DNA of 38,265 nucleotides from a virus. The stretch lies in IMG/VR virus record IMGVR_UViG_3300009488_000035, positions 1 to 38,265 of that record; one strand, 5' to 3'. The notes under the pieces were generated by a model, which did no database searches, was not told the origin of the DNA, and saw nothing but the letters and a program-made list of their open reading frames with translations. The translations under genes and the position numbers were made by a program. Positions 636-36,916 of this stretch are shown piece after piece (within the stretch, counting starts at the first letter, position 1; each line of letters begins with the position of its first letter).

Positions 636-667
636 TTTGCTCTCTTCGAAGCCTTGAGAGAAGCAAA
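636..667 (-). repeat. Dispersed palindromic element, copy 1 (reverse on +)
   Basis: This is a 32-base imperfect palindrome. On the minus strand its arms are TTTGCT(T)CTCT and AGAGAGCAAA around an 11-base loop, so the stem has 10 pairs with one bulged T. It begins 3 bases past the capsid stop codon (on the transcript) and ends about 36 bases before the next start. Here it is intergenic and could be a hairpin in the late mRNA. Confidence 0.9.
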
Positions 668-669
668 TC

Positions 670-1842
670 CTATAACACCTCGAGCCGCTTACATAAGACA
701 GCGGCGTGGACGTCACCGACGAATGTATCGATCCGCGTTGTGAAATGGTAATAATTCCCACGATCTTCAGGGGATCTCGCCGCTTCCATGATGAATTCCA
801 GGTGGATACCGACTCCGAAGTTGCCGTTTTTGGTCAGCACAGCATCAGTCAGATCGCCACCAGTCGTCGGAAAGCCTGACTGCAACGTTCCCTTGATTGC
901 GGCCGTATCTACCCACGCCTCTTTCTGAGCGTCTACCGTGTCGATCTTCATAGTGACAGGCATCAAGGGACAAGGAACGATTGGTATGCCATTTGCAGTT
1001 GTCAGCGTTCTCCCCATTACTTGCATATCACCAAGCTCCGTCCCGCGCTCCTGCAACTGCTCACAGTAATCGACGAGGATCTTGTCGTTTACGAAAAACC
1101 TGAGGTCAGCAAGGCCATCAGCGAGGTATTCGGAAGGCATTTCCTTATACATCCGCCCGAACTTGATCTCCTGGCCGAAGGGCTGTGTAGTTTTCGTTTC
1201 TACGATCCCCTTTGTCGTCGTGAGAGCGAAATCCGAAGCTCTGTCTGTGACGATATTCGAGGCGTCCAGGATGATGGTCGAGCCTGTCGAATCGTTCTCG
1301 TGGAGTTCGCCGCTTTGAGAATGATCCAGCCTGTAGCGCCAGCCATCCACCTCTCCCCTGGAATTATCTACCTCATAGCCATTCAGATCATGGGTATCCC
1401 CTAGCCAGCAGATTTGCTCCATCTCCCGGGCCATTCTCTTCTCTACCATACTGAACAGATGATTCTTGAACTCGGCAGCGGAGCCAATCGTGAGATCCTC
1501 GTAATCTCTGTCTTTGATCAGAAGACCTCCACGAAGCTCTTTGCTGGTCAGCAGGATCGTATCATGTGCGAACTGCGTCTTGATCTTCGTGGAATCGTAC
1601 TTCGCTTCAGGAACGAGAAAATCACCACTTCCCCAGGCGATCCCCCTGATGTTCTTCGTCCTGTATTTCATATTGACTTTTCGAGCGTAGTATTTCATGT
1701 TCGAGAGATCCCACGAGCGCTCGATAAAGCCAGCAGCTTCCTCTGGATTAAGCGTTATTGTCGGCAGTGTGAGCATTTTATTGATAGCAGCTTGAACGCT
1801 AAACTTTCCGCTACTATCCAGCAGATCTCTGTTGCTTAACAT
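670..1842 (-). CDS. Major capsid protein, HK97-fold type
   Basis: A 390-residue protein of typical length for an HK97-fold capsid subunit. It starts 10 bases after AGAGGTGAT. The N-terminal arm (ITLNPEEAAGFIERSWD) is followed by a core with DSTKIKTQFAHDTILL-type strands, a long spine-like helix at about 130-150 (SAAEFKNHLFSMVEKRMAREMEQ), and a P-domain-like C-terminal half ending CKRLEVL. The assignment rests on these features plus the fixed gene order portal, minor head, protease, scaffold, capsid. No obvious protease cleavage site was identified. Confidence in the role is high, while the exact family is less certain. Confidence 0.85.
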   Translation of the reverse strand: MLSNRDLLDSSGKFSVQAAINKMLTLPTITLNPEEAAGFIERSWDLSNMKYYARKVNMKYRTKNIRGIAWGSGDFLVPEAKYDSTKIKTQFAHDTILLTSKELRGGLLIKDRDYEDLTIGSAAEFKNHLFSMVEKRMAREMEQICWLGDTHDLNGYEVDNSRGEVDGWRYRLDHSQSGELHENDSTGSTIILDASNIVTDRASDFALTTTKGIVETKTTQPFGQEIKFGRMYKEMPSEYLADGLADLRFFVNDKILVDYCEQLQERGTELGDMQVMGRTLTTANGIPIVPCPLMPVTMKIDTVDAQKEAWVDTAAIKGTLQSGFPTTGGDLTDAVLTKNGNFGVGIHLEFIMEAARSPEDRGNYYHFTTRIDTFVGDVHAAVLCKRLEVL

Positions 1843-1913
1843 TTTCGATCACCTCTATTTTTGCAAAAGACATGGACATAGTATCATGTCTTAATTGTCA
1901 TACCTGAGGTAAC

Positions 1914-2852
1914 TTAGAGCGGAACACTCTTATAGTGATCAACCACCTCGTCCGCTCCAGCGCCTCCTGTCTCTTCAGCCTGTCTTGCTACGCCCGCGCT
2001 CTTTTCCACCACCTGGAGGCGATCCTCGATACCTTTCAGAGCTTCGAGTATCTTCGCGACACCTGGATCGGGATCTGGATCGGCATCTGTGCCTTCGGGT
2101 TTTTCACCGGGCTTTGGGTCTTCGCCTTTCTCCAGCTTCCCGATTCGCGCTGTGATGGCTTTCAACTTCTCCAGAATGGCCTCGGCGCCAGTCGGTTCCT
2201 TACCATCCTCTTTCTTCCCGCCGATGATCTCCGCTATAGCATCCAGAGCAGTTTTCAGAGCTGCCATTTCTTCATCTGAATACTTATTTGCAGGCGGATC
2301 GGTTTCCTCTTCAGCAGCAGGCTCCGCATCCAGATCTTTCAGGAAATGCCCGACAGCTTTCGATAGATCCGCCGGCATCTGGCCCTCATACTGGCTCAGA
2401 ATATTGAGCGAATCAATCGCCTCTTGATCCAGCTTCTTGAGCTGCGCTTCCGTTACGTCCTTCGCTGTGAGCGCTTTGATAAACGCGATCAGTTTTGCGT
2501 AATCCATTGTATTCCCCTCTGCTTTCGACAGATGATAGCTCGTCTCAAACCCATTCTCGGCGTCACTGGCTACGGTATAAGAGCAACTAACAGGATCGAT
2601 ATATAATTCCTCGTCATTGTCTGGCTTGAAATAGTTGAAATAGAAAGCTTTTAGGTCTTCGATTTCTTTACCATTCACCGTGAGCTTTGTACCCTCTAAG
2701 GTTCCGTCTGACTGAAGCCTTACATCCACCTCGGCTTTTTCGAGATCGCTTTTGAGGAACAAAAACTTTCTCTTGTTTGCTGGAGCGTCAACGACACTGA
2801 CCTCCTCAATATCTATCTGCAGCAGTTCCCCGCCTTCTTTCTTCAGCTTCAT
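1914..2852 (-). CDS. Probable capsid scaffold protein with XkdF-tail-like N-terminus
   Basis: A 312-residue, strongly acidic protein that starts right after GGAGGTAATT. Residues 12-35 (VSVVDAPANKRKFLFLKS) match the peptide usually seen near the end of XkdF-type prohead proteases, where the protein feeds into the scaffold. Residues about 115-312 are helical with Glu/Lys runs, Pro/Asp-rich linkers (DADPDPDPG) and coiled-coil stretches (LEKLKAITARIGKLEK; ILEALKGIEDRLQVVE), as expected of a scaffold. Here this protease-tail peptide opens a separate gene immediately downstream of the protease, so the classic protease-scaffold arrangement may have been split. The scaffold role is inferred from composition and position. 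Confidence 0.7.
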   Translation of the reverse strand: MKLKKEGGELLQIDIEEVSVVDAPANKRKFLFLKSDLEKAEVDVRLQSDGTLEGTKLTVNGKEIEDLKAFYFNYFKPDNDEELYIDPVSCSYTVASDAENGFETSYHLSKAEGNTMDYAKLIAFIKALTAKDVTEAQLKKLDQEAIDSLNILSQYEGQMPADLSKAVGHFLKDLDAEPAAEEETDPPANKYSDEEMAALKTALDAIAEIIGGKKEDGKEPTGAEAILEKLKAITARIGKLEKGEDPKPGEKPEGTDADPDPDPGVAKILEALKGIEDRLQVVEKSAGVARQAEETGGAGADEVVDHYKSVPL

Positions 2853-9706: not shown

Positions 9707-9907
9707 TCAAAATACCTTTTTAGGCTTTCCCAACTGCTCCGCTTGATGTATTTCAACGTCAATCAGACGGCAGTGGATGTTATTATGTCCTGCCCGGCCG
9801 CAATATGAGCAAACCTTCGAAGCGCGCGCTATCTTGTCAAATTTCGCTTCCGTGATCTTTGCGCTTTTGCTTCTCTCAATACATCGAAGAGAGCAAAAGT
9901 CATTTCT
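9707..9907 (-). pseudogene. Startless zinc-knuckle reading frame directly after the stop of the upstream gene
   Basis: After the TGA of the 226-residue gene (9908-9910), the same frame stays open for 66 codons and encodes a clear CCHC zinc knuckle: CSYCGRAGHNNIHC (C-x2-C-x4-H-x4-C), ending KPKKVF. No ATG, GTG or TTG lies in this frame upstream of the knuckle. The nearest ATG is in another frame and stops after 24 codons. A palindromic element copy sits between the TGA and the knuckle (read FCSLRCIERSKS). It may be a C-terminal domain cut off by a stop, a readthrough extension, or a remnant that lost its start when the element entered. Confidence 0.5.
9866..9897 (+). repeat. Dispersed palindromic element, copy 2
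   Basis: Full-length, forward on the plus strand, with arms TTTGCTTCTCT and AGAGAGCAAA and a diverged loop containing AATACATCG. It lies just after the stop codon of the 226-residue gene and inside the open frame that carries the zinc knuckle. Confidence 0.88.
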
Positions 9908-10588
9908 TCATAGCCCTTTCTGTTTCAGAAAGTTGTCTAGATCCCGGCGATCTTTTGTTTCCCGCTCTTCATGTGTTAGTTTAGCATCTTTATCAGGCCA
10001 TTCGCCAGAGATCCGCTCAATACCTTTTTCAGATTCTATCAATTTGGAACAAGCCGCTATGTTGAAAGGTAGGCAATCAATTTCCCTGAGCGTAAACTTG
10101 ACAATCGGAATGTCTATGATAATTCGATACCGAAATTCCCCGATGTATTGATATTTCTTCACCAGGTTAAGATTTGCTCTCTTCGATGCTTTGAAGGTAG
10201 TACCTGAAGTAAAATCTGAGATCTTGCGGATGCCATCGGAGATCCGCCTCAGGATCCAGTTATTGGCGCCCACGTTATAATCCAGAACCACTTCTTTTTC
10301 CCCCTGGAGCATATTGAACATGCCCCATCTTCGGCGCTTGCGATGTTTTTCCAGGACAGGACAATTAGCATAAGCGCAGTATCCGCCGGCATAGTTGACC
10401 CCGGCTGGTACGCCATCCGGCAGGAGCTTTCCCTTTCCAAATCTTCCCCTGGACGCAATGACTTTGATGTTATTTCTGAGAAAAAGTCTGCCAATTCCGC
10501 GCAGCTTTACCTCGAAAACTTTACCCCGGAGTTCGCTTACTAGCGGAGTGTTTCCCATCTTCCATTGATAATTCCATTTATTGCTCAT
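9908..10588 (-). CDS. Hypothetical early protein carrying a long-form palindromic element
   Basis: A 226-residue protein of unknown family. The ribosome site AAGGGAG is 13 bases from the ATG. It is basic, with a Cys pair in YCAYANCPVL (about 70-80), a central LDYNVGANNWILRRISDGIRK, and a beta-rich FRYRIIIDIPIVKFTLRE. Residues about 126-139 (TSGTTFKASKRAN) are encoded by the nine-base-longer version of the palindromic element, in frame. The stop is TGA, and the same frame then runs on into a zinc knuckle, so the full ancestral protein may have been about 290 residues with a C-terminal knuckle suited to nucleic-acid binding. Confidence 0.6.
   Translation of the reverse strand: MSNKWNYQWKMGNTPLVSELRGKVFEVKLRGIGRLFLRNNIKVIASRGRFGKGKLLPDGVPAGVNYAGGYCAYANCPVLEKHRKRRRWGMFNMLQGEKEVVLDYNVGANNWILRRISDGIRKISDFTSGTTFKASKRANLNLVKKYQYIGEFRYRIIIDIPIVKFTLREIDCLPFNIAACSKLIESEKGIERISGEWPDKDAKLTHEERETKDRRDLDNFLKQKGL
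10173..10213 (-). repeat. Dispersed palindromic element, copy 3 (long form, +9 bases)
   Basis: Read on the minus strand, this copy has AGGTACTAC inserted after the left arm compared with the short form. The addition is three codons (Gly-Thr-Thr) and keeps the frame of the host gene. The right arm GAAGAGAGCAAA is intact. Confidence 0.88.
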
Positions 10589-11071: not shown

Positions 11072-11094
11072 CGTTTTCACCTCATCATGATTAT

Positions 11095-11211
11095 GCTTCT
11101 CTCAAGGCTTCGAAGAGAGCAAAATTAGCTTCTCTTGAGGCTTCGAAGAGAGCGAAATTTTCTTCTCTTGCCCCTGGCTTTTGCTTCTCTCTGAGCATCG
11201 AAGAGAGCAAA
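11095..11211 (+). repeat. Dispersed palindromic element, three tandem copies (4-6)
   Basis: Copies at 11095-11123, 11128-11157 and 11180-11211 are all forward on the plus strand. The first two are spaced 33 bases apart, with about 22 bases before the third. The loops differ (AAGGCTTCG, GAGGCTTCG, GAGCATCG) while the arms are kept. The third copy and most of the second lie inside the 3' end of the 94-residue gene, whose stop codon falls within the second. The first lies between that gene and the membrane protein gene. Confidence 0.9.
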
Positions 11212-11409
11212 TCCGGCTGTCTCTGGAACCTTCCAGAGTCCAAAATCACTATACATCTGGCATCTGGTGATATACAGTACTATAGCGACCTCTTCTGGAT
11301 CAATCGCTGTGCATTGGTAAGCTGCTGAATCTTCACTACAGTTCGCCATCAGGTCGTTTGTAAGCTGGCGAATTTCTTTTGCTGTTGGGCTAGTCTGTTT
11401 GCTTCCCAT
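11125..11409 (-). CDS. Hypothetical early protein whose C-terminus is built from palindromic elements
   Basis: A 94-residue protein. The start at 11409 follows GAGGAG. Residues 1-64 look like the original protein (helical, with AIDPEEVAIVLYITRCQMYSDFG). From about residue 65 the sequence is element-encoded: GFALFDAQREAKA from one copy and FRSLRSLKRS from the next, in two different frames of the element, ending on a stop inside the second. The elements have evidently replaced or extended the native C-terminus. No family recognised. Confidence 0.6.
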   Translation of the reverse strand: MGSKQTSPTAKEIRQLTNDLMANCSEDSAAYQCTAIDPEEVAIVLYITRCQMYSDFGLWKVPETAGFALFDAQREAKARGKRRKFRSLRSLKRS

Positions 11410-11419
11410 TTTACTCTCC

Positions 11420-11851
11420 TCACAGGTGATCGATTTGCGCTGCAGCTTCTTTGATCTCTGGGTTGCCAATAGCCATCAAACGAAGTATGCCATAGATCGT
11501 CGTTCCTGAAATCTTGAGCCTGATACATTCTTTCGTGATCGCCTCAAGCCCGCGCTGTATCTCTTTCGCTTTGAGCCTCGCTATTTCCTCTGTAAGATTG
11601 CGGATGCCCGCCTCGAATGTTTCTGCCTCCTCTTTGTTTTTTTCTGCCAGGAGCATAGGCTTCCGCTTTTCTTCCTCCCTTGCCGACTTTTTGAGATCTT
11701 TCGCAACCTGGACTTTCCTCAGCAATTCCTTTTCCTTTTCAGGATCCAGATCCAGATCGCTGAGGATATTCTTGGTCTGCTTTACTGACCAATCCTCTCT
11801 GATGCAATCCTCAATTAGTTCGTTCACATATGTTTCAGTAAAACCGCCCAT
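11420..11851 (-). CDS. Coiled-coil hypothetical protein
   Basis: A 143-residue protein. The start at 11851 follows AAAGGAG (12-base gap). The N-terminal helical domain (YVNELIEDCIREDWSVKQTKNILSDLDLD) is followed by a long Lys/Glu coiled coil at about 38-98 and a helical C-terminus. The composition suggests a structural or DNA-processing accessory factor. The gene is 25 bases downstream of the HNH gene. Confidence 0.6.
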   Translation of the reverse strand: MGGFTETYVNELIEDCIREDWSVKQTKNILSDLDLDPEKEKELLRKVQVAKDLKKSAREEEKRKPMLLAEKNKEEAETFEAGIRNLTEEIARLKAKEIQRGLEAITKECIRLKISGTTIYGILRLMAIGNPEIKEAAAQIDHL

Positions 11852-13748: not shown

Positions 13749-15719
13749 TTATTTCGGCGCATCGTTGAGGGCTTCTTGCTCCTCTTTCTGATTCTGGGTA
13801 GGTGCCAGATGTTTTGACAATTCCTGTTCGAGAGTTCTGAGTAGAAGTTCTGCCTCTGGCAGCTTCATCATGCCCATTCGCTTTGGCTTATATCCGATCA
13901 CATCTTTAACCTTCACCCTGAAAGCAACCGATCCCAGCGTTTTATACTGCGGAAGGGACGTAGCGAGCGCGCGCAATCTCTTGAATTGCTCTTTGGTGAT
14001 CTCCTGTTCTTCATCCGGTGGCTCCGTCTGTCCAGGAAGCACAGGATTGGGATTGTGATCGACTATATCCAGTTGCGGATTCTCTTCATCAGGTTTGGCA
14101 TCCGGATCGAAATCTGGCAACCGTCGGATCCGGACAATAGCCTCTGCGTAATCATCCAGAGTCCATGAATCTGCTGGGGCTTTGTGTAGATTTTCGAGGA
14201 TCCACGCGTCCCGCTTCTCTACGGTTCCGAATTTCTTGACGCATACCGTAAGTAGATCCTTTGTGAGGTTCCGCTCCTCTTTTTCCGCTGATTCGATTAC
14301 AGCGTCAATCTCCGCACGGAGTTCTTGCGCTGTTTCCTCTGTGCCAGTTTTTACCGCATCTTTCACAGCGTCCTCAACAGGCGTGCCATCTTTCGTGACT
14401 GGCTCTGGAAATTCTGCCTGGATCAAGAGGATCGCTTTCTGGAATTGTTCCGCCATCCATTTCGAGAGATCAGTATCATCAGGGAAGTGTTCCAGAATCC
14501 ATACGTCGCGCTCCTGGATTCCAGCGAAACAGGTTGCACCTAATTCCATGAAAGTTGATCGGAGTGCCTCGAGCTCAGGATCGGAATCTTCGTCCTTTCC
14601 GGTATCCACAACATCGCCCAGGACTTTCAGAGCTTTTTGATAATCTTCCACTGTCCAGGCTCCGATAAGCTTTTCTGCAACCGTTTTGCAGAAAGCATCC
14701 CTGTCCTGGATTCCAGCGAATACCGTCGCTCCCAATTCAGCGAAAGCGGCTTTCAGTTGCTCGAGCTCAAGATCGAATCTTCCGCTCTTCCCTTTCGTTT
14801 CCTCTTCTGGCTCCTGTTTCGGTTTGTGCGCCTCTGCTCTCTTCGAAGCCTTGAGAGAAGCAAACGGCATTTTATGGATGGCGCTGAAAGCCTTTGCATA
14901 ATGCGGCGCTTTCCATTTTGTGACAGAAGCTTCGCCCGTGTTCTGGAGTTGCCAGGAGTGCCGATCATCTTCATTTGCGAAGAGGTCCTTGATCATCCCA
15001 AAATATGATTCTCTGAGCGCTGTTAGATCCTCTCCGCTATCTACCGTCACCGATGCCACTTCAGGAATCTCCTGGGCAGGCTCCGATGCTTCCAGCGGCG
15101 GCTCATTATATGCCTGTAAAGCAGGATTCTCGAATCCGCCGCCGAGTTCCTCAGCGATATATGGTAGATGCTGAGTTTCCAGTCCCGCGTATCGGAGCGC
15201 TCGTGTTACAGCGCATTTTCTGAACATATCGCGCAACATTGTCTCCCAAAACCTGTTCGGCTTATTATCGCTTTTGCGCCGTTTGATACAATCCTCCAAC
15301 CACGTTTCCCAGACGTGAGGTCTTTCTCTGTCCTTGATCGTCAAAGTGATTTTGCACACTTTGGGATCGTCAGGATCGTCGAATTCATACTCAATATGCT
15401 CCAGCCCATTAGCGTATGCCACATCCAGATACTTTCTATAGCCCACTATCGTCTGACCAGGTTCGCCTGCGATCTTCATAAAGTATACCTCGCCCTTTAG
15501 CGGATCCAAATTCAGGGCGCGGCATTTTCCCATGAACCAGAAAATATCATCATCTGTGCCGCCTTTGCATATATATTTTCTCACAAGCTCCTTGTTGATC
15601 TGGATTGTCTCATAGCTGTATTGGAGCGGCGCTATCTCCGCGCCGGTTCCCTCTGTTGCTGGCTGTCTGGTTTCCGCATCCATCTTATCAAGTTCTGCCA
15701 TGTCATTTTTCTGATTCAT
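13749..15719 (-). CDS. bet: Bet/RecT-family single-strand annealing protein with repeated C-terminal domains
   Basis: A 656-residue protein. The start at 15719 is favoured over 15779, which lies deep inside the upstream gene. Residues about 25-200 match phage recombination protein Bet: LVRKYICKGGTDDDIFWFMGKCRALNLDPLKGEVYF, then IVGYRKYLDVA and FWETMLRDMFRKCAVTRALRYAG. A normal Bet is about 250-350 residues. Here the remaining 430 contain at least three degenerate repeats of about 60 residues sharing LGATxFAGIQxRDxW and a DYxKA helix, with acidic linkers. One palindromic element is in frame (PFASLKASKRAEA). With the upstream exonuclease it would form a strand-annealing recombination pair. Confidence 0.85.
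   Translation of the reverse strand: MNQKNDMAELDKMDAETRQPATEGTGAEIAPLQYSYETIQINKELVRKYICKGGTDDDIFWFMGKCRALNLDPLKGEVYFMKIAGEPGQTIVGYRKYLDVAYANGLEHIEYEFDDPDDPKVCKITLTIKDRERPHVWETWLEDCIKRRKSDNKPNRFWETMLRDMFRKCAVTRALRYAGLETQHLPYIAEELGGGFENPALQAYNEPPLEASEPAQEIPEVASVTVDSGEDLTALRESYFGMIKDLFANEDDRHSWQLQNTGEASVTKWKAPHYAKAFSAIHKMPFASLKASKRAEAHKPKQEPEEETKGKSGRFDLELEQLKAAFAELGATVFAGIQDRDAFCKTVAEKLIGAWTVEDYQKALKVLGDVVDTGKDEDSDPELEALRSTFMELGATCFAGIQERDVWILEHFPDDTDLSKWMAEQFQKAILLIQAEFPEPVTKDGTPVEDAVKDAVKTGTEETAQELRAEIDAVIESAEKEERNLTKDLLTVCVKKFGTVEKRDAWILENLHKAPADSWTLDDYAEAIVRIRRLPDFDPDAKPDEENPQLDIVDHNPNPVLPGQTEPPDEEQEITKEQFKRLRALATSLPQYKTLGSVAFRVKVKDVIGYKPKRMGMMKLPEAELLLRTLEQELSKHLAPTQNQKEEQEALNDAPK
14835..14864 (-). 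repeat. Dispersed palindromic element, copy 7, inside bet
   Basis: Short form, reverse on the plus strand. It is read in the Bet frame as FASLKASKRAEA and falls in the linker between the first and second C-terminal repeats. Only the base before the left arm and the last residues differ from the consensus. Confidence 0.9.
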
Positions 15720-15939
15720 TTTCTTTCTCACTTTCTTGAAGGAGCACCTCAGCGTTTTCAACGGCGTTGATGAATTCATCCCGCTTTTGTTTCGCCATAG
15801 CGATCCAGTGTCTTGTTTCGGTCCTGAGAAAATGGAGATCTTCCGAATCCGTTCGCTGCCAATCCTGGCTGGTGAGCGCTTTCAGATAATCGATAACGCA
15901 TCTCAGCGCGTGGACTTTTTGATCGTGTATGCTTCCCAT
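15703..15939 (-). CDS. Small helical early protein
   Basis: A 78-residue protein. The start at 15939 follows AGGGAG. It is helical throughout (HALRCVIDYLKALTSQDW; LRTETRHWIAMAKQKRDEFINAVENAEVLLQ) with an acidic tail. It overlaps the Bet start by 17 bases and follows the exonuclease by 11 bases, so it may be an accessory of the recombination pair. No family recognised. Confidence 0.6.
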   Translation of the reverse strand: MGSIHDQKVHALRCVIDYLKALTSQDWQRTDSEDLHFLRTETRHWIAMAKQKRDEFINAVENAEVLLQESEKENESEK

Positions 15940-17425: not shown

Positions 17426-17469
17426 TTCTATATCCTCCCTTGATAGGGTTTATAACTCTATATCAGTTA

Positions 17470-17499
17470 ATTATACCATAGAGCGACACGATATGTCAA
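17470..17499 (-). promoter_or_regulatory. Leftward early promoter
   Basis: On the minus strand there is TTGACA, an 18-base spacer and TATAAT with TGG before it. This is the strongest promoter visible. The transcript would begin near 17463, about 38 bases ahead of the regulator start. Confidence 0.85.
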
Positions 17500-19045: not shown

Positions 19046-20203
19046 ATGCGCTTTTATAGACCCAGAGACTTCTTTATTACTCTTTTAAAACGATTTAAAA
19101 GGGCGCCTGTGCAATTAGAGCTTGATCCGGACTCTCCCGAATCTTCTTCTCTCAAGGCTTCGAAGAGAGCAAAATTTGCTTCTCTCAAGGCATCGAAGAG
19201 AGCAAAATCCACCCCACCGAAAGAAGTCAAGGAAGCAAAAGAGAAAAAGCCAAAGCCCTCCCCGGAGATAGTGAGAAGCGAACTCAACCTGGAAAAGAAC
19301 GCGGTCTTTGCAGTCTCCACTTACAGGGAAAGGTCCAGGGAGGTCATCAGAACCTATGAGACGGATTCGGGATCCATGGAGCGCAGAGTCGTTGTAGGCA
19401 GAGCGACGGACGGCTCCGAAGTCGGTATCCTCACCACGACTCATTTCAAGCTGTATCTTGCCCTCCTGGAACTCTGGGAGAAAGCAGGGAAGCCAGTTAG
19501 CCAGCCTGTCCATTTCACCGTCCTCAAGTTGATAAAACGTCTCAAATTGGTGGATTCAGGGAATAATTATAAGAACATGCTGAAATCAATGGAAGGACTG
19601 AGAAGCATACCGATACGATTCATTGATAGCTTCCAGACCAAAGATGGAGAATTCCGGTCAACAGGGCATTTGAGCGTCCTATCGTACCTGGATATATACG
19701 AGAGAAAGAGAAGGACGAAAGGCGGAGATAAGGTCTATGGATACGGGGAATTCCAGTTTGACAGGCACATTCTTATGTCGCTTGTGGAAAATTTCACGCA
19801 CCCTCTTCGATTAGATGTGATCACCAGTTTCAGAAAACATCGGGAACTAGCTATACTCCTCTACACATATCTTGATCGCCAATTAGCCTTCAGAAGAAAG
19901 TTTGAGATTACGCTGAAAAAGCTCTACACGCAACTTGATCTGTCTCAGGCATACATTACCTATCCATCACAGAGGAAATCGAAAATAGAGCCCGTTCTGG
20001 AGCAACTGATAGGCAAAGAACTATCTACAGGGAAGTTATCATACTGCGAAACCGAGAAGACGAAGGACGGGAGGGATTATAAATTGGTTTGCAGAAAGAC
20101 CGGCGTTACGCAAATCCCCGCGCCGGAGCCTGTCAAATTAGATTGGAGCCTGGCCCTGGACAAACTGTTATCTCAGATGGAGCAAATGAAAGACAACCGA
20201 TGA
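19046..20203 (+). CDS. repA-like: RepA-like plasmid replication initiator
   Basis: A 385-residue protein. The ATG at 19046 is preceded by GGAGG at a long distance (about 14 bases), which may keep expression low. Residues 1-80 are a basic linker that includes two tandem palindromic-element peptides (SSLKASKRAKFASLKASKRAK, at about 34-54). The core at about 85-330 resembles the replication initiator protein A family: LTTTHFKLYLALLELWEK, FTVLKLIKRLKL, then FQFDRHILMSLVENFTHPL and LAILLYTYLDRQLAFR, a pair of winged-helix units. The iterons directly upstream support replication initiation. The next gene overlaps by ATGA. Confidence 0.75.
   Translation: MRFYRPRDFFITLLKRFKRAPVQLELDPDSPESSSLKASKRAKFASLKASKRAKSTPPKEVKEAKEKKPKPSPEIVRSELNLEKNAVFAVSTYRERSREVIRTYETDSGSMERRVVVGRATDGSEVGILTTTHFKLYLALLELWEKAGKPVSQPVHFTVLKLIKRLKLVDSGNNYKNMLKSMEGLRSIPIRFIDSFQTKDGEFRSTGHLSVLSYLDIYERKRRTKGGDKVYGYGEFQFDRHILMSLVENFTHPLRLDVITSFRKHRELAILLYTYLDRQLAFRRKFEITLKKLYTQLDLSQAYITYPSQRKSKIEPVLEQLIGKELSTGKLSYCETEKTKDGRDYKLVCRKTGVTQIPAPEPVKLDWSLALDKLLSQMEQMKDNR
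19145..19207 (+). repeat. Dispersed palindromic element, two tandem copies (8-9) inside rep
   Basis: The units lie at 19145-19174 (first TTTG part lost) and 19175-19207, a 33-base period of 11 codons. Both are read as (F)ASLKASKRAK in the N-terminal linker of the initiator. The loops differ at one base (GGCTTCG versus GGCATCG). Confidence 0.92.
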
Positions 20204-20847: not shown

Positions 20848-20888
20848 TTTGCTCTCTTCGATGCCTTGAAGGTAGTACCTGAAGCAAA
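20848..20888 (-). repeat. Dispersed palindromic element, copy 10 (long form)
   Basis: This is the nine-base-longer version with GGTACTACC, between the terminator and the last tail gene stop. It is followed by TTTGCTCT, which looks like the first arm of a further, truncated unit. Confidence 0.88.
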
Positions 20889-21798: not shown

Positions 21799-21799
21799 T

Positions 21800-22873
21800 T
21801 TAGAATCGCTCTCCTTCCGATAATAGAATATAAGTCCCCGAATAACTGGTAACGCTAAACCGCTCATGTACGCCTATGATAATGAAATACCCTGCGATGC
21901 CAGTCTCCTCACTCCTGATAAAGATTCTATATGCGATTCCCAGAAGCGGACACGCTGGCATCTTCAGAAGATAGATCTCTCTTTGATAAGGGAAATAATC
22001 CAGCGTCTGATCGATTATCTGACCCGCATTCGTCCACGTCCCTATAAGCTCGTCAGTCTCCTGATCTCCATGCGCTCCGTATTTACGCTTCGATACCGAA
22101 TCCGTCCTGGACCGCGTATGCTGGCCAGCGTAGACACCATCGCCGGCAGTGAACTCCGGCCGAATGCAATGGACGAAATCTATTGCCTTATAATTGATCA
22201 ATTCCGCTACTTGCTTATGGATTAGATACTCGATATCCGAATCGGTGAATACATACCCTGTATCAGTGAAAGTCGTTCTTCTGGTAAGATTCAGCCTTCC
22301 TTCTGGATCGAAACGCTGGATATATCCTATGCAGAGAGCGGCGCCATGGATCATAGCCCAGTAATTTCTGAGCTCAAGAAAGGTATCCCCGAATTCTTTA
22401 GTAGTTGGAGGTCCTGTTTCATTCTCGTAGATGACTTCACCGATCCGTGCCAGGCTTGCCAGTTGGTCTACCAGCTTAACGGGCGTCTCATAGGATGAAT
22501 AATCACCGCTAGTCCTCGATTTGCGGAGCTTATATCCCTCTTCAGCTAGTGTCAGAGTGATATTCTGATCCGTATCCATAGTCACATCGCGAATGATTCC
22601 TGAAAACCGCGCGACGTTATTCCCATCAAAGCCGGCAAACAGCTTGATCTTCGCTCCGCGCCGGAACACTGGTCGGCCAGCTTCGATATATTTCCCCGCC
22701 TCATCAGCTATCGTGAGCGTCCCTGTCCCATAATTCGGCTCGTGAAGAGAGTCTTCAGCCCTGCGAGAATACGTTGCTACCATACTATCGCTGGTTATAT
22801 CCCCATGATAAGCTGCGAAAACGGAAAAGGTGGGATGTCTGACTCTTTCTCTGGATTTTGCCAAGAGCGACAT
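21800..22873 (-). CDS. Tail hub / baseplate-like protein
   Basis: A 357-residue protein starting after GGGGGAGTCCTAT. Beta-rich segments such as GTGTLTIADEAGKYIEAGRPVFRRGAKIKLFAGFDGNNVARFSGIIRDV and LTLAEEGYKLRK resemble the hub fold of phage late-control D / gp27-type and Tal N-terminal proteins. It lies two genes downstream of the tape measure, where a tip hub is expected. The family is inferred from pattern and position. Confidence 0.65.
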   Translation of the reverse strand: MSLLAKSRERVRHPTFSVFAAYHGDITSDSMVATYSRRAEDSLHEPNYGTGTLTIADEAGKYIEAGRPVFRRGAKIKLFAGFDGNNVARFSGIIRDVTMDTDQNITLTLAEEGYKLRKSRTSGDYSSYETPVKLVDQLASLARIGEVIYENETGPPTTKEFGDTFLELRNYWAMIHGAALCIGYIQRFDPEGRLNLTRRTTFTDTGYVFTDSDIEYLIHKQVAELINYKAIDFVHCIRPEFTAGDGVYAGQHTRSRTDSVSKRKYGAHGDQETDELIGTWTNAGQIIDQTLDYFPYQREIYLLKMPACPLLGIAYRIFIRSEETGIAGYFIIIGVHERFSVTSYSGTYILLSEGERF

Positions 22874-22885
22874 ATAGGACTCCCC

Positions 22886-25123
22886 CTATTCAAGTGCGAT
22901 TTGACCCCTCAACTTCAGCGAAGCAGACCTTGTTGGGGTCGCGGCATTTGCCTCCCCGGTATGATGCCTGCGCTCTGAAAATGATAAACTGGAAACTCTA
23001 TAATACTGATCGTATTCCACCTCGACTACATCTCCATTAGCGAAGCTAGATACTTCCCGGCCGCAGTTCGCAAATGTCTCATTCCCGCCATCGAATGGGA
23101 TCAGATCCCGCCCGGCATCTCCCTGCGTATTATCCATAGCTGTCGCGGCTCCCGGTTCATCCAGGTGCCACTGAGCGATTATATTCCCCGCTCCTGATAG
23201 ATCCTCGGCGGGCTCGTTATAAGACGCTAATATCTCGCCCGCTGTCCGCATATCATTGAAAAGCGCAAGGTGAGCGATAGAGCCATCGAAGAAGGTTGCA
23301 CCTTCATGCTGGCCAACCGTAAAATCGGGATCTTTGTCAGCGATACTGTTTTTGAAGCCAGTCGCCTGAGAGACAAATGCACCATTTTTGTAAAAATCAA
23401 CAGTCCCTTCAGAGGCGTCATAGACAGCACAAATAAACGCCCATTCATCAACTACTAAATTCAGGCCGGAGGACTGTCCACTCGTGTTACCCCCCATCAT
23501 TCCGTCATCGTTGATATACACAATCAATTCATCATCGTCTCGCCGAAAAAGATACATGCGCTTATCACCAGCGCCCAACCACTTACCGACGATTGTTTTG
23601 ATGATGCCAGAAACACTATCAGGCTTTATCCATACCTGGATAGTCAAATCATTCGCCCCGGTGATCCCCGACTCAGGAAAGTCAGCATCGCTGCGATAGA
23701 AATACTGACTATTACCATCCAGATGTGCGGAGACTTTATCAGCAATAATCGAATCACCCTCATCTCCGATCCTGTAATCCAGTTTATGGCGCAATATGTA
23801 ATCATCTGTCAGATTTTCTATACGAATAGCCGCGCCCGCATCATCTAAAACCGCCCGATTCTTTAACGGGACTGTGGTACTCAGAGATTTGTTCACCGTA
23901 ACCTCAACGTAATAGCTGTCCAGATCGAGAGCAGTTCCTGCTCCCTTTGTCCCATTCGTCTGAACCAGAACGCGCACAAAGCCAGTAGCTGTATCGACAA
24001 ACATCTGCGCGTGCTCTGGCTTCATGAGCGATAGAGAGACAGTCTCTTTGGTGGAGACGCGTGTCGCTCCTATCTCTACCCAGTTGCCAGCGGTCACATT
24101 CCATAGATAGACCGTTACGCCATCCTGGTTCGATGCTGAAGCATCATTCGCAGCGCCTTTATAAGTCACCTCAAAACTCTGAATATCTGCAGCGGATGCA
24201 TATTCGCCAGAGATTTTAGGAGTAAACTTATGATACTGATAATGCCCCGTCACGGATGCGGAATCCCTGACGTAGTTTTCATCGTCATCATCCAGAATAT
24301 TGTAATCGGCGGTAGTGAATTCTGTTGTCGAGAAATCCCCTGCAGCCGAAGGCTCGGAGGCGCTCTTTGAATCATAAGCGCAGTGCGTTCCTGATGGATT
24401 GGAGATCCCCGTGAAATTATATTGAGTCTCCAGATAAGCTGTCATCCGCTCAATCGCTGAAGGGACAGCCTGATCGTTAAAATAAGTTTCCCACCGGCTC
24501 CTGTGAAAATCCAGCATCCGATCAAAGCCATCGTAACTCAATCGCGGAAAGATCATATCGGCCTCTGCTGTAACCATAAACACGTCAGATCGAAGGGTTC
24601 CATCGAGCGTCCACTTCGAGGAGCTCGCCTTTGGATAGTTATAAGACAGCGATTCAGGATCCACTTCGAGAACGTTTCCATGAAATTTCAGATCGTCAAT
24701 ATAGAATGCCAGGCCCGAACCTGTACCCGCTCTCAGGTAAATTATTATCTCAATGCAGCCCGCGGGAGAATCAACCTCTTCGTAATGATATGACCAATCA
24801 GTTTCAATAAGCGTCCCTGTGGAGATGTTCGCAAGATTGGAATTGTCATATATGACATAATCGATCTCCTGGCCAGCAGCGCACTTATAAGCCATACTAA
24901 ACGCGTGTTTAGTACTTTCCCGAATGCCGGATATTGTGTAACGAACACCTTTCGTATCAGTATCGGACACGACTTTCAATATAGAATCACGATCTGCGTC
25001 TGTCGTGTCTATAGTCTTCGTGATGGCTGCTCCCGTTTGAGCGACCCATTGCAGCGCTTCCCAGGCCGCCTCAAAAGGGAAAGTCGTATCTTCTGGATTG
25101 GGAAGGAATAATCTCACTGTCAT
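22886..25123 (-). CDS. Distal tail protein with carbohydrate-binding and LamG domains
   Basis: A 745-residue protein that starts overlapping the tape measure stop. Residues about 30-160 form a jelly-roll carbohydrate-binding-like module ending FYIDDLKFHG. A middle part (about 170-460) contains Dit-like features (LSYDGFDRMLDFHRSRWETYF) and beta domains. Residues about 490-660 are a LamG/concanavalin lectin fold (ANDLTIQVWIKPDSVSGIIKTIVGKW; WAFICAVYDASEGTVDFYKNG; FDGSIAHLALFNDMRT). Position after the tape measure suggests a distal tail protein enlarged with glycan-binding modules for host attachment. Confidence 0.7.
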   Translation of the reverse strand: MTVRLFLPNPEDTTFPFEAAWEALQWVAQTGAAITKTIDTTDADRDSILKVVSDTDTKGVRYTISGIRESTKHAFSMAYKCAAGQEIDYVIYDNSNLANISTGTLIETDWSYHYEEVDSPAGCIEIIIYLRAGTGSGLAFYIDDLKFHGNVLEVDPESLSYNYPKASSSKWTLDGTLRSDVFMVTAEADMIFPRLSYDGFDRMLDFHRSRWETYFNDQAVPSAIERMTAYLETQYNFTGISNPSGTHCAYDSKSASEPSAAGDFSTTEFTTADYNILDDDDENYVRDSASVTGHYQYHKFTPKISGEYASAADIQSFEVTYKGAANDASASNQDGVTVYLWNVTAGNWVEIGATRVSTKETVSLSLMKPEHAQMFVDTATGFVRVLVQTNGTKGAGTALDLDSYYVEVTVNKSLSTTVPLKNRAVLDDAGAAIRIENLTDDYILRHKLDYRIGDEGDSIIADKVSAHLDGNSQYFYRSDADFPESGITGANDLTIQVWIKPDSVSGIIKTIVGKWLGAGDKRMYLFRRDDDELIVYINDDGMMGGNTSGQSSGLNLVVDEWAFICAVYDASEGTVDFYKNGAFVSQATGFKNSIADKDPDFTVGQHEGATFFDGSIAHLALFNDMRTAGEILASYNEPAEDLSGAGNIIAQWHLDEPGAATAMDNTQGDAGRDLIPFDGGNETFANCGREVSSFANGDVVEVEYDQYYRVSSLSFSERRHHTGEANAATPTRSASLKLRGQIALE

Positions 25124-28005: not shown

Positions 28006-28277
28006 TTTCTTCCCTTTGCTTTGAGCTTTGCAAGCATCTGTTCCGAAGTCACGCGCTTGACAATCCGCGTTCTATTACTTCGAGATGGTCTTTCCTTTGA
28101 TCTTCCCCTTGATCTTTCTATGATGTCCAGTTTCTTTTTCATGAAACCGTAGAGATATGGCAATTCGTATTTCAGGACTGCCTCGCGTGTATGACCTGAG
28201 TCCAGAAGGCAAAAACTTATCTCTTCCAGCGTGTCTAACTGGTCTCTGAGGCTATATCCTGATTCTCCGCCTGTGTA
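28002..28277 (-). CDS. T extension of the tail assembly chaperone, reached by -1 frameshift
   Basis: This frame has no start of its own. It opens after a TGA just before the slippery site and runs 91 codons to a TGA overlapping the tape measure ATG (ATGA). It encodes YTGGESGYSLRDQLDTLEEI, then a helical region (HTREAVLKYELPYLYGFMKKKLDIIE) and a basic tail. Joined to residues 1-139 of the upstream gene it gives a GT protein of about 230 residues. The arrangement is that of lambda G/GT and of most long-tailed phages: a short G and a frameshifted GT chaperone binding the tape measure protein. Confidence 0.85.
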   Translation of the reverse strand, partial: YTGGESGYSLRDQLDTLEEISFCLLDSGHTREAVLKYELPYLYGFMKKKLDIIERSRGRSKERPSRSNRTRIVKRVTSEQMLAKLKAKGRK

Positions 28278-28693
28278 GGGTTTTCAGAGTCTACCTCATT
28301 TGCTCTCTTCGATGCCTCGAGAGAAGCAGAAGGCGCATCTTCGCCAGCCTTTGCGTCCGCAACAAATTCATCTTTCTCAAAATCCGCCTCTATCTCTTCC
28401 CGGGTATAGCTAGTGAAGAAATAGATTACCTCTTTGAGAATCTCGTTAGTGGCCGCCTTATCAGTAAACCCTATGCGCGCCCCGACTTCTTCTATGCTTA
28501 TCTCCGCAGCGTCCCGGAGCGCTCTGACCCAGGCAAGCACCCTGAAAACTTCACGATCTAATGGTCCATCTTCGTGGTATAAGCACTTTGGTATGGGTCG
28601 GGTGATCCGTTTAGGCAGGTTCTCGGCAGCCAGGATAACCTCGTTAAGTGTAGCCTTATCACCCTGTAATTTCAGTAAATCAATGAATTCCAT
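28235..28693 (-). CDS. Tail assembly chaperone G protein
   Basis: A 152-residue protein starting after GAGGAG. Residues 1-100 are helical (LLKLQGDKATLNEVILAAENLP; VLAWVRALRDAAEISIEEVGARIGF). Residues 115-152 are an acidic, disordered tail that carries one palindromic element in frame (SASLEASKRANEV). The slippery heptamer lies 13 codons before its stop. Position between a tail-completion gene and the tape measure gene, plus the frameshift, support the G assignment. Confidence 0.8.
   Translation of the reverse strand: MEFIDLLKLQGDKATLNEVILAAENLPKRITRPIPKCLYHEDGPLDREVFRVLAWVRALRDAAEISIEEVGARIGFTDKAATNEILKEVIYFFTSYTREEIEADFEKDEFVADAKAGEDAPSASLEASKRANEVDSENPTQAENQDIASETS
28277..28283 (-). promoter_or_regulatory. 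Programmed -1 frameshift heptamer
   Basis: Read on the minus strand in the G frame, the site is A-AAC-CCT, a canonical X-XXY-YYZ slippery heptamer (AAACCCT). It lies directly inside the window where the -1 frame is open. A palindromic element ends about 16 bases upstream on the mRNA and could form a hairpin near the site. Confidence 0.85.
28299..28330 (-). repeat. Dispersed palindromic element, copy 11, inside the tail chaperone gene
   Basis: Short form. It is read in frame as SASLEASKRANEV in the disordered tail of the G protein. The left arm ends in CTGCTT rather than TTTGCTT, so the outermost pairs are lost. It lies 16 bases ahead of the slippery heptamer. Confidence 0.88.
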
Positions 28694-28716: not shown

Positions 28717-29085
28717 TCAGAATAACGCTTTTAACGTCTTCTCCAGGATCGTCCAGATCTTGCCTTGCATCTCCATAAGACCTGGTAGCAGAAAAGCATA
28801 CTTCCCGTTCCAGCGACATTCCACATATATGGCATAATATGTGCCTGCATAAATGTATCCCATGATATAGCTCTTGCTCTCGATAATAACGTGATGGCCT
28901 ATGCTGCGCCGGAGGGTACCCGTTCTGTCGGTAAACCCCTTCCCCGTCCGCTGCCTCTGGAACTCTTTTTTGATATGCGCCTCTGTCGCCAGAGAAGCAA
29001 GCCCCACCCCTTTGACGCCAGCTTTGACAATCTCCGCCTCGGCGCGGTCAAGATTTTTCAGTACCGTATCGAGACCGTAGATCAT
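28717..29085 (-). CDS. Tail completion / HK97 gp10-like protein
   Basis: A 122-residue protein. Its ATG overlaps the stop of the upstream gene (ATGA). The pattern fits the HK97 gp10 family: an N-terminal helix with AEAEIVKAGVKGVGLASLATEAHIKKEF, then TGTLRRSIGHHV, AGTYYAIYVECRW and FLLPGLMEMQGKI. Members act in head-tail joining or tail completion. Here it sits unusually after the tube genes rather than before the tail terminator. Confidence 0.7.
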   Translation of the reverse strand: MIYGLDTVLKNLDRAEAEIVKAGVKGVGLASLATEAHIKKEFQRQRTGKGFTDRTGTLRRSIGHHVIIESKSYIMGYIYAGTYYAIYVECRWNGKYAFLLPGLMEMQGKIWTILEKTLKALF

Positions 29086-31328
29086 GGGTTCTCCACGGAA
29101 TATTTATAATCATCCAGATACATGATAGGAACGTCATGGACGACATAATCCAAATTCGAGAAATTGATCGGCCCAAGCAGGATTTTCGATTCCTCACAAT
29201 ACAACTGGTTTGTATATCCATCGCTATCAGTAAACTGTAGTATCGTCTGAAGAACCGGCGGCTCGAAATTATCATCAAAATGATATTCCCGGAAATCTAC
29301 CTTATGACATGAGAAGTTATCGAACCACGCTGCAACACCATCGCCATAGATTTTGATCGTGAGCGTTCCGCTGGCTGCCGTGAATCTGTGAGTCACCTTC
29401 ACCCAATCGGTCGTCTCTGAGCCATTATCGAGCGTTACAGATGCCGCTCCTGACAGAACGACCATAGCCTTGTCAGCGGTTCCAGCTTTAACATGGCCGC
29501 AAAATGTGTACTCCTCCCCACTGGTAATCGTTACCGCCTGGCTCACGTATTTCGTTGCAGGATCGTCGGAATTGACCTCATAGCAGAACTCTCCAGACTG
29601 TTCCGCCACGTCCTCATCATCTACAGTCGGCACGCCAGTAGTAGCCCACTCGGAGTCTGCAATATCCGACTCGAACCCGCCCGCGTCGATATAGTTTTTC
29701 GATATATGGACGTTATCCCAGTATCCCATCTCCCCATCTGTCGTCGATCCAGATCCCAGGTCGATAGTCGTGGCAGTATCGCCAGCCTCGAAATCGAACT
29801 CTATCTCATACCAGGTCCCGCCGGTAGTGGCTCCGGCTTGCGTTACGGTTATGCCCTTATCCGCCGCAAGGTCCACATCCACAAGCTGGGAAGCTCCGTT
29901 AGGTGTAACTGGCGCTCTAAACCAGCCGTGGAAATGATACTCTACATTAGTGATAGTTGTCACCGTATGCCGAGCAGAGGCTTGAGTCCCATCGGTATTT
30001 TTGACTCTGAGAGATCTGGCTCCATACTTTGTATACTGAGTATCTTTCCTGACCTCACAGAAAGCATCCGGCCTCTTCCAGGGGCCAATCCCCGCGTTTT
30101 CCATTCCCCAATCGAAGTTCATCAGATTGGAGCTCAGGATAGCTATCTGAGATCTGCTATGCACTCCATAATTCGCCGTTTCGCCCCCAACGAATGTTAA
30201 AACCAAACCGTTCGCGGCGGTAGCAAGATCTTCAATATCAGTCGCCGCGGCAGCATCTCTAAATGGCCACCAGGCATCAGGTAATTCCGCCTCTGTTCGT
30301 GGAGTAGCGGCAGCCGTTAGAGCCTGAGCCGCTGTCAGGACCACGTCATCATAAATCGCCGCCTCAGCAATATGCCCATCGAAAGGCCTGCCACCATCGG
30401 ATTCTGCCCCTATAGATATAACAAGAGCATTTGAGCAATCACCAATATTGGCCAGCGTTCCGGTTCTGGATGCTGTATCATCATAGCCCTCGACGTAGAT
30501 TTTACAATCCGCTGCGCTATTCTCATTATAGGTCACTATTACAAAGCGCATCTCGTCTTTGAGGATCGGAGTAGCGCCTGTCAGGAGATAAGCATCGACT
30601 CCATCGTTTACAGCGAAGTTCAGAAAGCCGAAAACGTCAATGAAGAGCACCCACCCAGTGGTCGTGACGTAAGCCGTACCATCGTAATCAGAGCTTTTTG
30701 CGATCAAGACTTCTGTCGTACTTTCACGCCTGCGCTTGAACCTGATGAGGATTGAGTAATCCTGAGTATCCCCTATATCGAACAGGACGTTATCAGCGCG
30801 GGTAAAATACTGCGGCGCCGAATAATCCAGATCCGCCATCACGCCGATTGTTTCCAGGCTGGGTATGTCGTTTCCAGCGCCATCGTCGATGTCTACTGAC
30901 GTTCCTGGAGTAACAGGAGTTCCATCAATGTAGCCCGCATAGAAAGCGCCAGTCTCTTCGCTCAATATGATCTGCTCATTATCCTCAAAAGAATTGTGAG
31001 AGCCTGGTTCGGTCGTGAGTGTATCTTCCGTATCCCCGGTAGTTATAGCAGTGACCTCTTTCGTGCCTGCTTTCTCTACAGGATCGATACCGCAAAGGTC
31101 AGCGAGAGTGTCAACGTTGAAAGCCATCTCACCGATTGTCAAGCCCACATTCCGCCTCACAAGAGTAGCGCCTTTGAGAACGCGGCTCTGGCCTCTCCAC
31201 TCAATAATAGTATCCTCACTGACAAACGAGGATCCGCCGCGCCAATCTGCCATCAGGAAATCAGCCGATGCAATTACGTCTGATAGACCTGCATAGAATG
31301 TGCCATCAAATGCTATATGCTCATTCAT
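29082..31328 (-). CDS. Second tail tube protein split by a large LamG and carbohydrate-binding insertion
   Basis: A 748-residue protein starting after AAAGGGCG. Residues 1-80 align with the neighbouring 167-residue tube protein: IEWRGQSRVLKGATLVRR against VEWRGQSRVLKDVEVVKT, followed by IGEMAFNVDTL against ISEVAFKPGLL. Residues about 690-748 align with that protein's end (GPINFSNLDYVVHDV against GVPINFTNIDKIVQDV). Between them lie about 600 extra residues: a LamG fold at about 170-365 (FDGHIAEAAIYDDVVLTAAQ) and two jelly-roll carbohydrate-binding-like modules at about 400-680. The protein may be a minor tube subunit that displays glycan-binding domains along the tail. Confidence 0.75.
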   Translation of the reverse strand: MNEHIAFDGTFYAGLSDVIASADFLMADWRGGSSFVSEDTIIEWRGQSRVLKGATLVRRNVGLTIGEMAFNVDTLADLCGIDPVEKAGTKEVTAITTGDTEDTLTTEPGSHNSFEDNEQIILSEETGAFYAGYIDGTPVTPGTSVDIDDGAGNDIPSLETIGVMADLDYSAPQYFTRADNVLFDIGDTQDYSILIRFKRRRESTTEVLIAKSSDYDGTAYVTTTGWVLFIDVFGFLNFAVNDGVDAYLLTGATPILKDEMRFVIVTYNENSAADCKIYVEGYDDTASRTGTLANIGDCSNALVISIGAESDGGRPFDGHIAEAAIYDDVVLTAAQALTAAATPRTEAELPDAWWPFRDAAAATDIEDLATAANGLVLTFVGGETANYGVHSRSQIAILSSNLMNFDWGMENAGIGPWKRPDAFCEVRKDTQYTKYGARSLRVKNTDGTQASARHTVTTITNVEYHFHGWFRAPVTPNGASQLVDVDLAADKGITVTQAGATTGGTWYEIEFDFEAGDTATTIDLGSGSTTDGEMGYWDNVHISKNYIDAGGFESDIADSEWATTGVPTVDDEDVAEQSGEFCYEVNSDDPATKYVSQAVTITSGEEYTFCGHVKAGTADKAMVVLSGAASVTLDNGSETTDWVKVTHRFTAASGTLTIKIYGDGVAAWFDNFSCHKVDFREYHFDDNFEPPVLQTILQFTDSDGYTNQLYCEESKILLGPINFSNLDYVVHDVPIMYLDDYKYSVENP

Positions 31329-31349: not shown

Positions 31350-31390
31350 TTTGCTTCAGGTACTACCTTCAAGGCATCGAAGAGAGCAAA
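31350..31390 (+). repeat. Dispersed palindromic element, copy 12 (long form)
   Basis: The nine-base-longer version with GGTACTACC lies in the gap between the two related tube genes, 9 bases after the stop of the shorter one. It could act as an intercistronic hairpin. Confidence 0.9.
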
Positions 31391-31399: not shown

Positions 31400-31903
31400 T
31401 TAGTTCTCAAGTAAGAACGAGGCCAGCGAACCTGTAGCGCTGTAGAGCTTCAGTATGACATCCTGGACTATCTTATCTATATTCGTGAAATTGATCGGCA
31501 CCCCCAGAGCGATCCCATCGCCAGCGAATGCCTGGAATATCTGCCCACCGAGCATGCATTGGACGAGCCACTGCATCTCAGGCGGCACGGTATCCTTATC
31601 GAATGTGTAGCTGGTTGCTGGTTCCGTTCCCACCGATTTCAGAGCGTCACTCCCATTCTTTGTTGCTCCATAGAGCGTCTCAAGAAGTCCAGGCTTGAAA
31701 GCGACCTCAGAGATCGTAAATATAATATCGGTCTTTACGACTTCTACATCCTTCAGAACCCGGCTCTGGCCCCTCCATTCGACTGTCTCAGTGGCGATCT
31801 CCGCCACCCATCCGCCCCTGAACTCCGCGACCTCGTTTTCCGCCGCATTCGTGACAGCGGTTGCGTGTGCGTATAATGCCCCTGCTAATCCAACTTCTGA
31901 CAT
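31400..31903 (-). CDS. Major tail tube protein (short copy)
   Basis: A 167-residue protein. The ATG at 31903 follows AAGGAG. Size, position two genes upstream of the chaperones, and beta-rich pattern (WRGQSRVLKDVEVVKTDIIFTISEVAF; GVPINFTNIDKIVQDVILKLYS) fit a siphovirus tube protein. The next gene is a paralogue with a 600-residue insertion. Presumably this short form makes up most of the tube. Confidence 0.7.
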   Translation of the reverse strand: MSEVGLAGALYAHATAVTNAAENEVAEFRGGWVAEIATETVEWRGQSRVLKDVEVVKTDIIFTISEVAFKPGLLETLYGATKNGSDALKSVGTEPATSYTFDKDTVPPEMQWLVQCMLGGQIFQAFAGDGIALGVPINFTNIDKIVQDVILKLYSATGSLASFLLEN

Positions 31904-36124: not shown

Positions 36125-36418
36125 TTATATCACCAACCCGTTCTCTATCATAGTCATACCCGTAGCCATCGAGGGATGCGTTTCGATAGCGACTGCCGAT
36201 TCGTAGCTATCGATCTTTTCCTGGAAGAATTCGATAATATCGTCCACAGCATCAGCAACGTTGTCACCAGGACGATATTTCAGCGGATATGTTTCATCCA
36301 GCCCTGCCATATCCTGATCATCATCAGCGCACACCATTCTGAATGTTATATTGTACAGATTTTTCTGCGTCTCAGTGACATGAGATGCTAAAGTAATCAC
36401 TGGTGTTTGTAATGCCAT
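36125..36418 (-). CDS. Small hypothetical virion-region protein
   Basis: A 97-residue protein. The ATG at 36418 follows GGAGGAGG. It has a short beta part (LYNITFRMVCADDDQDM) and an acidic helix (DNVADAVDDIIEFFQEKIDSYESAVA). It lies 4 bases downstream of the coiled-coil gene. Unrecognised. Confidence 0.55.
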   Translation of the reverse strand: MALQTPVITLASHVTETQKNLYNITFRMVCADDDQDMAGLDETYPLKYRPGDNVADAVDDIIEFFQEKIDSYESAVAIETHPSMATGMTMIENGLVI

Positions 36419-36422
36419 TCCT

Positions 36423-36584
36423 CTATGCCTCCTCCAGAACAGCTTTGATCTCCTGTAGCTCAGTTCTGACCTCAATCAAGACATCTCTGATCTCCCGAAG
36501 CGCCTCTTTGAGTTCCACAAGAGCCTCGATGGTCAATTTCGTATCCTCAGAAAAAAGACCGTTGAAACCATCCTGCTCTGCCAT
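36423..36584 (-). CDS. Short coiled-coil protein
   Basis: The 53-residue start at 36584 is supported by AGAGGGTG. An upstream TTG at 36794 would read through the two palindromic elements but has no ribosome site. Residues 15-53 are a continuous Leu/Ile heptad coiled coil (LTIEALVELKEALREIRDVLIEVRTELQEIKAVL). It could be a trimeric stalk or assembly factor. Unknown. Confidence 0.55.
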   Translation of the reverse strand: MAEQDGFNGLFSEDTKLTIEALVELKEALREIRDVLIEVRTELQEIKAVLEEA

Positions 36585-36916
36585 ATCATCACCCTCTTTG
36601 TGGGAGGGATCCATCCCAGCACGTAAGCGGAATTCGGGAAATGCGCTTTTGCTTCTCTCAAGGCTTCGAAGAGAGCAAATTTTGCTTCTCTCAAAGCATC
36701 GAAGAGAGCAATGCGCCGGGACGGATCCCCCTGCTATATGAGAAAATTCGATTTCCAGCGTGACACTAAAGCCCTGATTCTGTTGGCTTTCCAATCCCAG
36801 AATCCGGATCCTGTTCGCCTATATGAGACGCTTCTGGAGACGACAAAAAATAAGAAATCCTTATTCCATGCGCTTTCAGGTTGCAGGCAGCCGAAGCTCC
36901 TGGAGTCTCCTATATG
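36585..36916. other. Gene-free stretch with two palindromic elements
   Basis: About 330 bases inside the late operon without a convincing gene. The only notable content is the tandem element pair at 36648-36711, flanked by short GC-rich inverted sequences. An open frame from 36794 runs through the elements into the coiled-coil gene but has only a TTG and no ribosome site. Confidence 0.5.
36648..36711 (+). repeat. Dispersed palindromic element, two tandem copies (13-14)
   Basis: The copies lie at 36648-36679 and 36681-36711, a 33-base period, both forward on the plus strand. The loops are AAGGCTTCG and AAAGCATCG. If the long upstream frame were used they would be read as CSLRCFERSKICSLRSLERSK, a different frame from that seen in rep and bet. 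Confidence 0.92.

Follow-up and report, generated by a model that had tools for sequence, protein, structure and literature searches.

Dispersed palindromic repeats in a tailed-phage genome and their likeness to REP and RPE elements

Families of short palindromic repeats are known from bacterial chromosomes, and the 14 copies of one such unit found in the phage DNA analyzed here represent an unusual density for a phage. This raises the question of what kind of family this is and how it came to be spread, between genes and inside them, over so small a genome. The stretch studied (referred to as the window, 38,265 nt) is a 38.3-kb tailed-phage genome with terminase, portal, capsid, and tape measure genes, probably nearly complete and circularly permuted, since the gene order breaks off past the capsid gene at the left end and resumes at the right end. 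Genes for a peptidase M15 and an S24-type repressor suggest that the host is a bacterium and that the phage is temperate. The microbe that carries it may also maintain it as a phage-plasmid, because a Rep-like gene (19046-20203), with 25% identity to the replication initiator of a Rubrobacter plasmid, is directly preceded by four 22-nt iteron-like repeats (TCCGCACTATTGAGTACAGTAA, 18935-19024). Among the other features of this genome are a perfect sigma-70 promoter at 17499-17470 on the minus strand (TTGACA-18-TATAAT, with a TG before the second hexamer), located upstream of the HTH gene 17051-17425 and divergent from the S24 repressor, and two large tail-region proteins with Laminin-G-3-like domains, encoded at 22886-25123 and 29082-31328 (-).

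Copies of the repeat and their relationships

A first-pass annotation, made from the sequence of the window, had listed 14 places with a 32-base unit. All 14 were examined and each holds a copy, with both orientations represented (Table 1). The stated length is right for 11 of them, which are near-identical 32-mers, while the other three (10173, 20848, and 31350) are a 41-nt variant; four of the listed starts (11095, 11128, 14835, and 19145) also had to be moved to the full-length starts at 11092, 11125, 14833, and 19142. In total the copies are distributed over 11 loci. The consensus of the eleven 32-mers is TTTGCTTCTCTCAAGGC[T/A]TCGAAGAGAGCAAA, from which each copy departs by 0-4 changes. 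Allowing up to three mismatches, TTTGCTTCTCTCNNNNCNTCGAAGAGAGCAAA gave 11 matches in the window and none in 100 dinucleotide shuffles, and a profile search of the window revealed no additional copies, weak ones included.

Table 1. Position, strand, and surroundings of the 14 repeat copies in the window.
Copy	Position	Strand	Surroundings
32 nt, consensus	636..667	-	2 nt behind stop of head-protein gene 670-1842
32 nt	9866..9897	+	10 nt behind stop of gene 9908-10588
41-nt variant	10173..10213	-	in gene 9908-10588 (unknown), in frame, reads FTSGTTFKASKRAN
first unit of head-to-tail dimer (33-nt period)	11092..11123	+	intergenic
second unit of the 11092 dimer	11125..11156	+	followed by a truncated third unit at 11158
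32 nt	11180..11211	+	intergenic; stop (TGA) in sense frame
copy in RecT-like gene 13749-15779	14833..14864	-	in frame, FASLKASKRAE
first unit of dimer in Rep-like gene	19142..19173	+	in frame, SSSLKASKRAK
second unit of dimer in Rep-like gene	19175..19206	+	in frame, FASLKASKRAK
41-nt variant	20848..20888	-	19 nt behind stop of gene 20908-21867
copy near 3' end of gene 28235-28693	28299..28330	-	in frame, SASLEASKRAN
41-nt variant	31350..31390	+	in 71-nt intergenic gap, 9 nt behind stop of gene 31400-31903
first unit of head-to-tail dimer, consensus	36648..36679	+	intergenic
second unit of the 36648 dimer	36681..36712	+	ATGCGC on both sides of dimer

In the 41-nt variant, whose 5' part is TTTGCTTC-AGGTACTACCT-TCAAGGC, GGTACTACC is inserted after TTTGCTTCA, and the same 9-nt insertion is common to all three copies. 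Two of these (20848 and 31350) are identical over 43 nt, as are the copies at 636 and 36648 across 32 nt, and a stub (AGAGCAAA) sits before the copy at 20848. Three head-to-tail dimers of 32-mers were found, all with an exact period of 33 nt, and two of them have GGCT in the first unit and GCA in the second, an indication that the dimer was itself a unit of copying. Given the shared insertion, the identical long copies, and the dimers, DNA must have been copied from one site to another, and the 14 copies arose by copying and not by convergence.

The unit can be drawn as a hairpin with a stem of 5 bp, a bulged T, and another 5 bp, and a loop of 11 nt. It had been proposed that the arms are almost invariant while the loop varies, and that the structure is under constraint, and the alignment supports neither idea. 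Loop positions C17 and T19-A22 are as invariant as the arms, and across the 14 copies conservation is best in the 3' half GCNTCGAAGAGAGCAAA, loop positions included, and not in the paired arms as such. Six of the ten stem pairs are invariant, substitutions in the arms nearly always break a pair, no two-sided (compensatory) change was seen in any of the ten, and the three copies of the 41-nt variant are unable to form the inner stem. The fold of the unit as single-stranded DNA (-6.3 kcal/mol) is only moderately better than that of shuffled sequences (z about -1.4). Taken together, these observations show that a single sequence was copied recently, and not that a shape was selected.

Position between genes and reading frame inside them

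Copies both between and inside genes had been reported from the start, and the count bears this out. Seven of the 11 loci (9 of the 14 copies) are intergenic, although non-coding DNA makes up 11.2% of the window (P = 5e-5), and at four of these loci the repeat closely follows a stop codon, at distances of 2, 9, 10, and 19 nt. The remaining four loci (five copies) are intragenic, and lie in a RecT gene (13749-15779, Pfam E 5.5e-23), the plasmid-type Rep-like gene, which contains a dimer, the gene 28235-28693, perhaps a tail-assembly gene from its position just upstream of the tape measure, and the gene 9908-10588. At all four the repeat is read from the coding strand in the same phase, giving the peptide FASLKASKRAK or a near variant; with the ATG of the Rep-like gene at 19046, the Rep locus is in phase 0 like the others. 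Of the six frames, the 32-mer leaves five open and the 41-nt form four and, given these 4-5 open frames, the chance of one shared frame at four loci is about 0.01. The frame used is hydrophilic, whereas the opposite strand encodes the more hydrophobic FALFEALREA. Compared with the 32-nt form, the 41-nt form has one synonymous and one conservative change, and three extra codons inserted in frame.

The RecT gene offers a closer view of one of these sites. Its product has an unusual C-terminal extension of four related domains of ~70 residues, and the repeat is found directly after the last helix of domain 1, in the interdomain linker. In the alignment, domains 2-4 have a gap of 9-11 residues where domain 1 has inserted residues. 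These sister domains, being without the 11 residues, act as an empty-site comparison and support a probable insertion of the repeat into the linker. Orthologous empty sites were also sought, and the searches for relatives of the four insert-bearing genes found none. Separately, the last ~28 codons of an ORF on the minus strand (11125-11469) run antisense through the repeat cluster (FALFDAQREAK...); its coding signal is weak, and it is possibly a fifth gene altered by the repeats.

Likeness to known repeats and alternative readings

REPs are imperfect palindromes of 20-40 nt, dispersed and mostly intergenic, that are mostly found <20 bp from the 3' ends of genes, form dimers, and occur occasionally in frame in DNA synthesis and repair genes (PMC3733652). 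The phage family is like them in every one of these traits, with its 11 copies of 32 nt and three of 41 nt around a 10-bp bulged stem, its preference for extragenic sites near gene 3' ends (7/11 loci, four within 2-19 nt), and its copies in RecT and Rep. REP families are, however, GTAG- or CGTC-tagged and their dimers are mostly head-to-head (PMC3733652), whereas the aligned phage copies have neither such an end tag nor a constant flank and their dimers are head-to-tail. There is also no associated RAYT, as no match to the Y1 transposase family PF01797 was obtained in the window, which agrees with the failure of the first-pass annotation to recognize a transposase, and the phage-borne family has no known counterpart on a chromosome. 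RPEs, in turn, are palindromic repeats of about 150 bp that make in-frame translational fusions in genes (PMC10969869), although RPE families of smaller size with a CGTC tag also exist (PMC3733652). Here the parallel is the in-frame position in unrelated genes at 4/4 intragenic loci, always with one strand, one frame, and one peptide, as in RPEs (PMC10969869 and works cited there), so that the resemblance to RPE and REP elements claimed earlier is supported. Unlike RPEs, the phage unit is about 33-42 nt long, does not end in CGTC, and belongs to a phage and not to Rickettsia; searched as an exact pattern in 84,980 species genomes, it gave no match, and hence none to a known RPE family or to Rickettsia among them.

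Other mobile repeats are less similar. Target-site duplications, as expected of MITEs and suggested earlier as a check, did not rise above the control, flank identity being no better than that of mispaired flanks; ATGCGC on both sides of the 36648 dimer was discarded as a target duplication, since mispaired flanks give at least 6 nt in 3 of 110 pairs. PARCELs likewise combine a palindromic DNA unit with a repeat peptide encoded in frame by it, and are apparently mobile; they differ in their 25-residue units, long tandem tracts, and often membrane-targeted proteins (PMC2996958). The phage family works like REPs and RPEs but is assigned to neither, as the tag, the RAYT, and a match to a known family are all missing.

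The explanation that we consider best, with a probability of roughly 0.6, is that the repeats form a REP/RPE-like family which is not autonomous and depends for its movement on an activity provided in trans, probably a host one. It is favored because of the position close behind genes, the dimers, the readable insertions in DNA synthesis and repair genes, and the in-frame fusion. The family would spread by DNA copying, as single units, head-to-tail dimers, and a 41-nt daughter form. The copies, the dimers, the variant lineage, the distribution, the uniform frame, and the 11-residue insert in RecT relative to its sister domains are observed, and movement of the copies is inferred. Insertions would be retained at sites where they cause little damage, chiefly right after stop codons, and would be tolerated inside genes only if a unit of 33 or 42 nt preserves the frame and is translated as the hydrophilic FASLKASKRAK within a linker or a tail. 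Since the phage is without a recognizable transposase, we infer an enzyme acting in trans, probably from the host, which could be IS200/IS605- or RAYT-like or some other activity on folded single strands; the phage would have taken the family up from a host absent from databases. The bulged base in the stem would be better tolerated by a folded single strand than by a site bound by a dimer. What counts against this REP/RPE-like reading is the lack of target duplication above control, end tag, constant flank, Y1 transposase in the window, covariation, and orthologous empty sites, together with a 41-nt form that breaks the stem, head-to-tail dimers, and a unit found nowhere else in the searches (see below).

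To our knowledge, the mechanism by which RPE-type elements move is not known, and these elements have been studied in slow-growing obligate intracellular bacteria. If the reading is true, a 38-kb phage with 14 copies, no fewer than two lineages of copying, and in-frame insertions in its replication and recombination genes would offer a far smaller setting for finding new copies. Phages would then be seen to be able to carry such repeats from one host to another, and the repeats to extend viral proteins with peptide linkers.

The main rival, although an unlikely one, is that the copies are dispersed binding sites of a phage protein, such as a repressor, a silencer, or a partition protein; the phage-plasmid N15, for example, has dispersed centromere sites. 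Other models are the stoperators of Cluster A and the sites of Cluster O mycobacteriophages, described as >30 dispersed 17-bp dyad repeats, symmetric (7-3-7), proposed to bind a dimer, conserved across five phages, about a third of them in genes, and with no fixed orientation; the description consulted reports no dimers, frame rule, or length variant for them (PMC4351075). The phage family is comparable in its dyad symmetry, dispersion, partly intragenic location, and absence of orientation bias between genes. Furthermore, the S24 repressor, Rep, and the iteron-like repeats give the phage a temperate and plasmid-like appearance, several DNA-binding proteins are encoded, and a 33-nt period would put the sites of a dimer on one helix face. 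However, an offset of 1 nt puts the half-sites out of register, the non-symmetric loop is also shared, and the 9-nt insertion common to three copies destroys one half-site. Copies in genes share a single frame and a single orientation, a rule that a symmetric site would not impose. The control region between the HTH gene and the S24 repressor (17426-17679) has no copy, and Pfam scans of the window gave no ParA/ParB.

It is also conceivable, if rather doubtful, that the phage has its own proliferating RPE-like coding palindromes, copied by RecT, exonuclease, or plasmid-like replication without a transposase, and building protein linkers.

RNA elements, that is, terminators or mRNA-processing hairpins behind genes, are a very improbable explanation. 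The four copies close behind stop codons and the RNA folds of single copies (-4 to -12 kcal/mol) would fit it, but no copy was called as an intrinsic terminator or is followed by a U-run, which led us to reject the terminator reading, and the orientation is mixed, five copies are inside genes, and neither an Rfam family match nor covariation was found. Selection of the peptide itself, in which FASLKASKRAK would serve DNA-handling proteins as a tail or linker and the intergenic copies would be by-products, appears highly improbable. All the intragenic copies read this peptide, three of the five in Rep and RecT, and the 41-nt form departs from the 32-nt form by the synonymous, conservative, and in-frame changes given above, but most copies are outside genes, a stop interrupts that frame in one of the intergenic copies, the DNA identity is far above what conservation of a peptide needs, and a wobble-freed pattern search matched only a coincidence in phage L007 (see below). 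An artefact of assembly or of the library, such as an adapter or a chimeric insert, might be suspected in a single metagenomic contig with a family unseen elsewhere, but is extremely improbable with copies that vary at several positions, comprise a separate 41-nt lineage, preserve reading frames, and occupy biologically patterned sites.

Searches outside the window and relatives of the phage

A search of related phages, plasmids, and the likely host genome had been recommended, and the unit was not found in the genomes and records covered. With up to three mismatches it is absent from 642 genomes (293 + 148 + 201) of three phyla, those of the nearest terminase matches. Viral contigs searched with three patterns gave nothing beyond isolated half or coincidental matches, and the dimer had no blastn match among plasmid and phage records. 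The match in L007, a 142-kb phage (TTTTGCTTC...GCTTCGAAGAGAGCAAAA), was considered a coincidence, being a single copy in what is likely a gene that uses another frame (FCF...FEESK), and L006 and L016/L017 were rejected as members of the family because they have one half or unrelated middles.

Between the phage and its relatives only head and tail genes are in common, with identities of 23-57%, and the terminase relatives, 55-57% identical, lack the repeat unit. Contig L023, binned in a Thermoplasmatota genome, gives the best chromosomal terminase match; it is 57% identical to this phage in the terminase and 41% in the portal, and is either a provirus in this archaeal bin or a misbinned contig. 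A Thermoplasmatota match fits poorly with a peptidoglycan enzyme and may be a binning matter. Another relative, the phage contig L021, contains three to four tandem repeats of 126 nt at 2543-2993.
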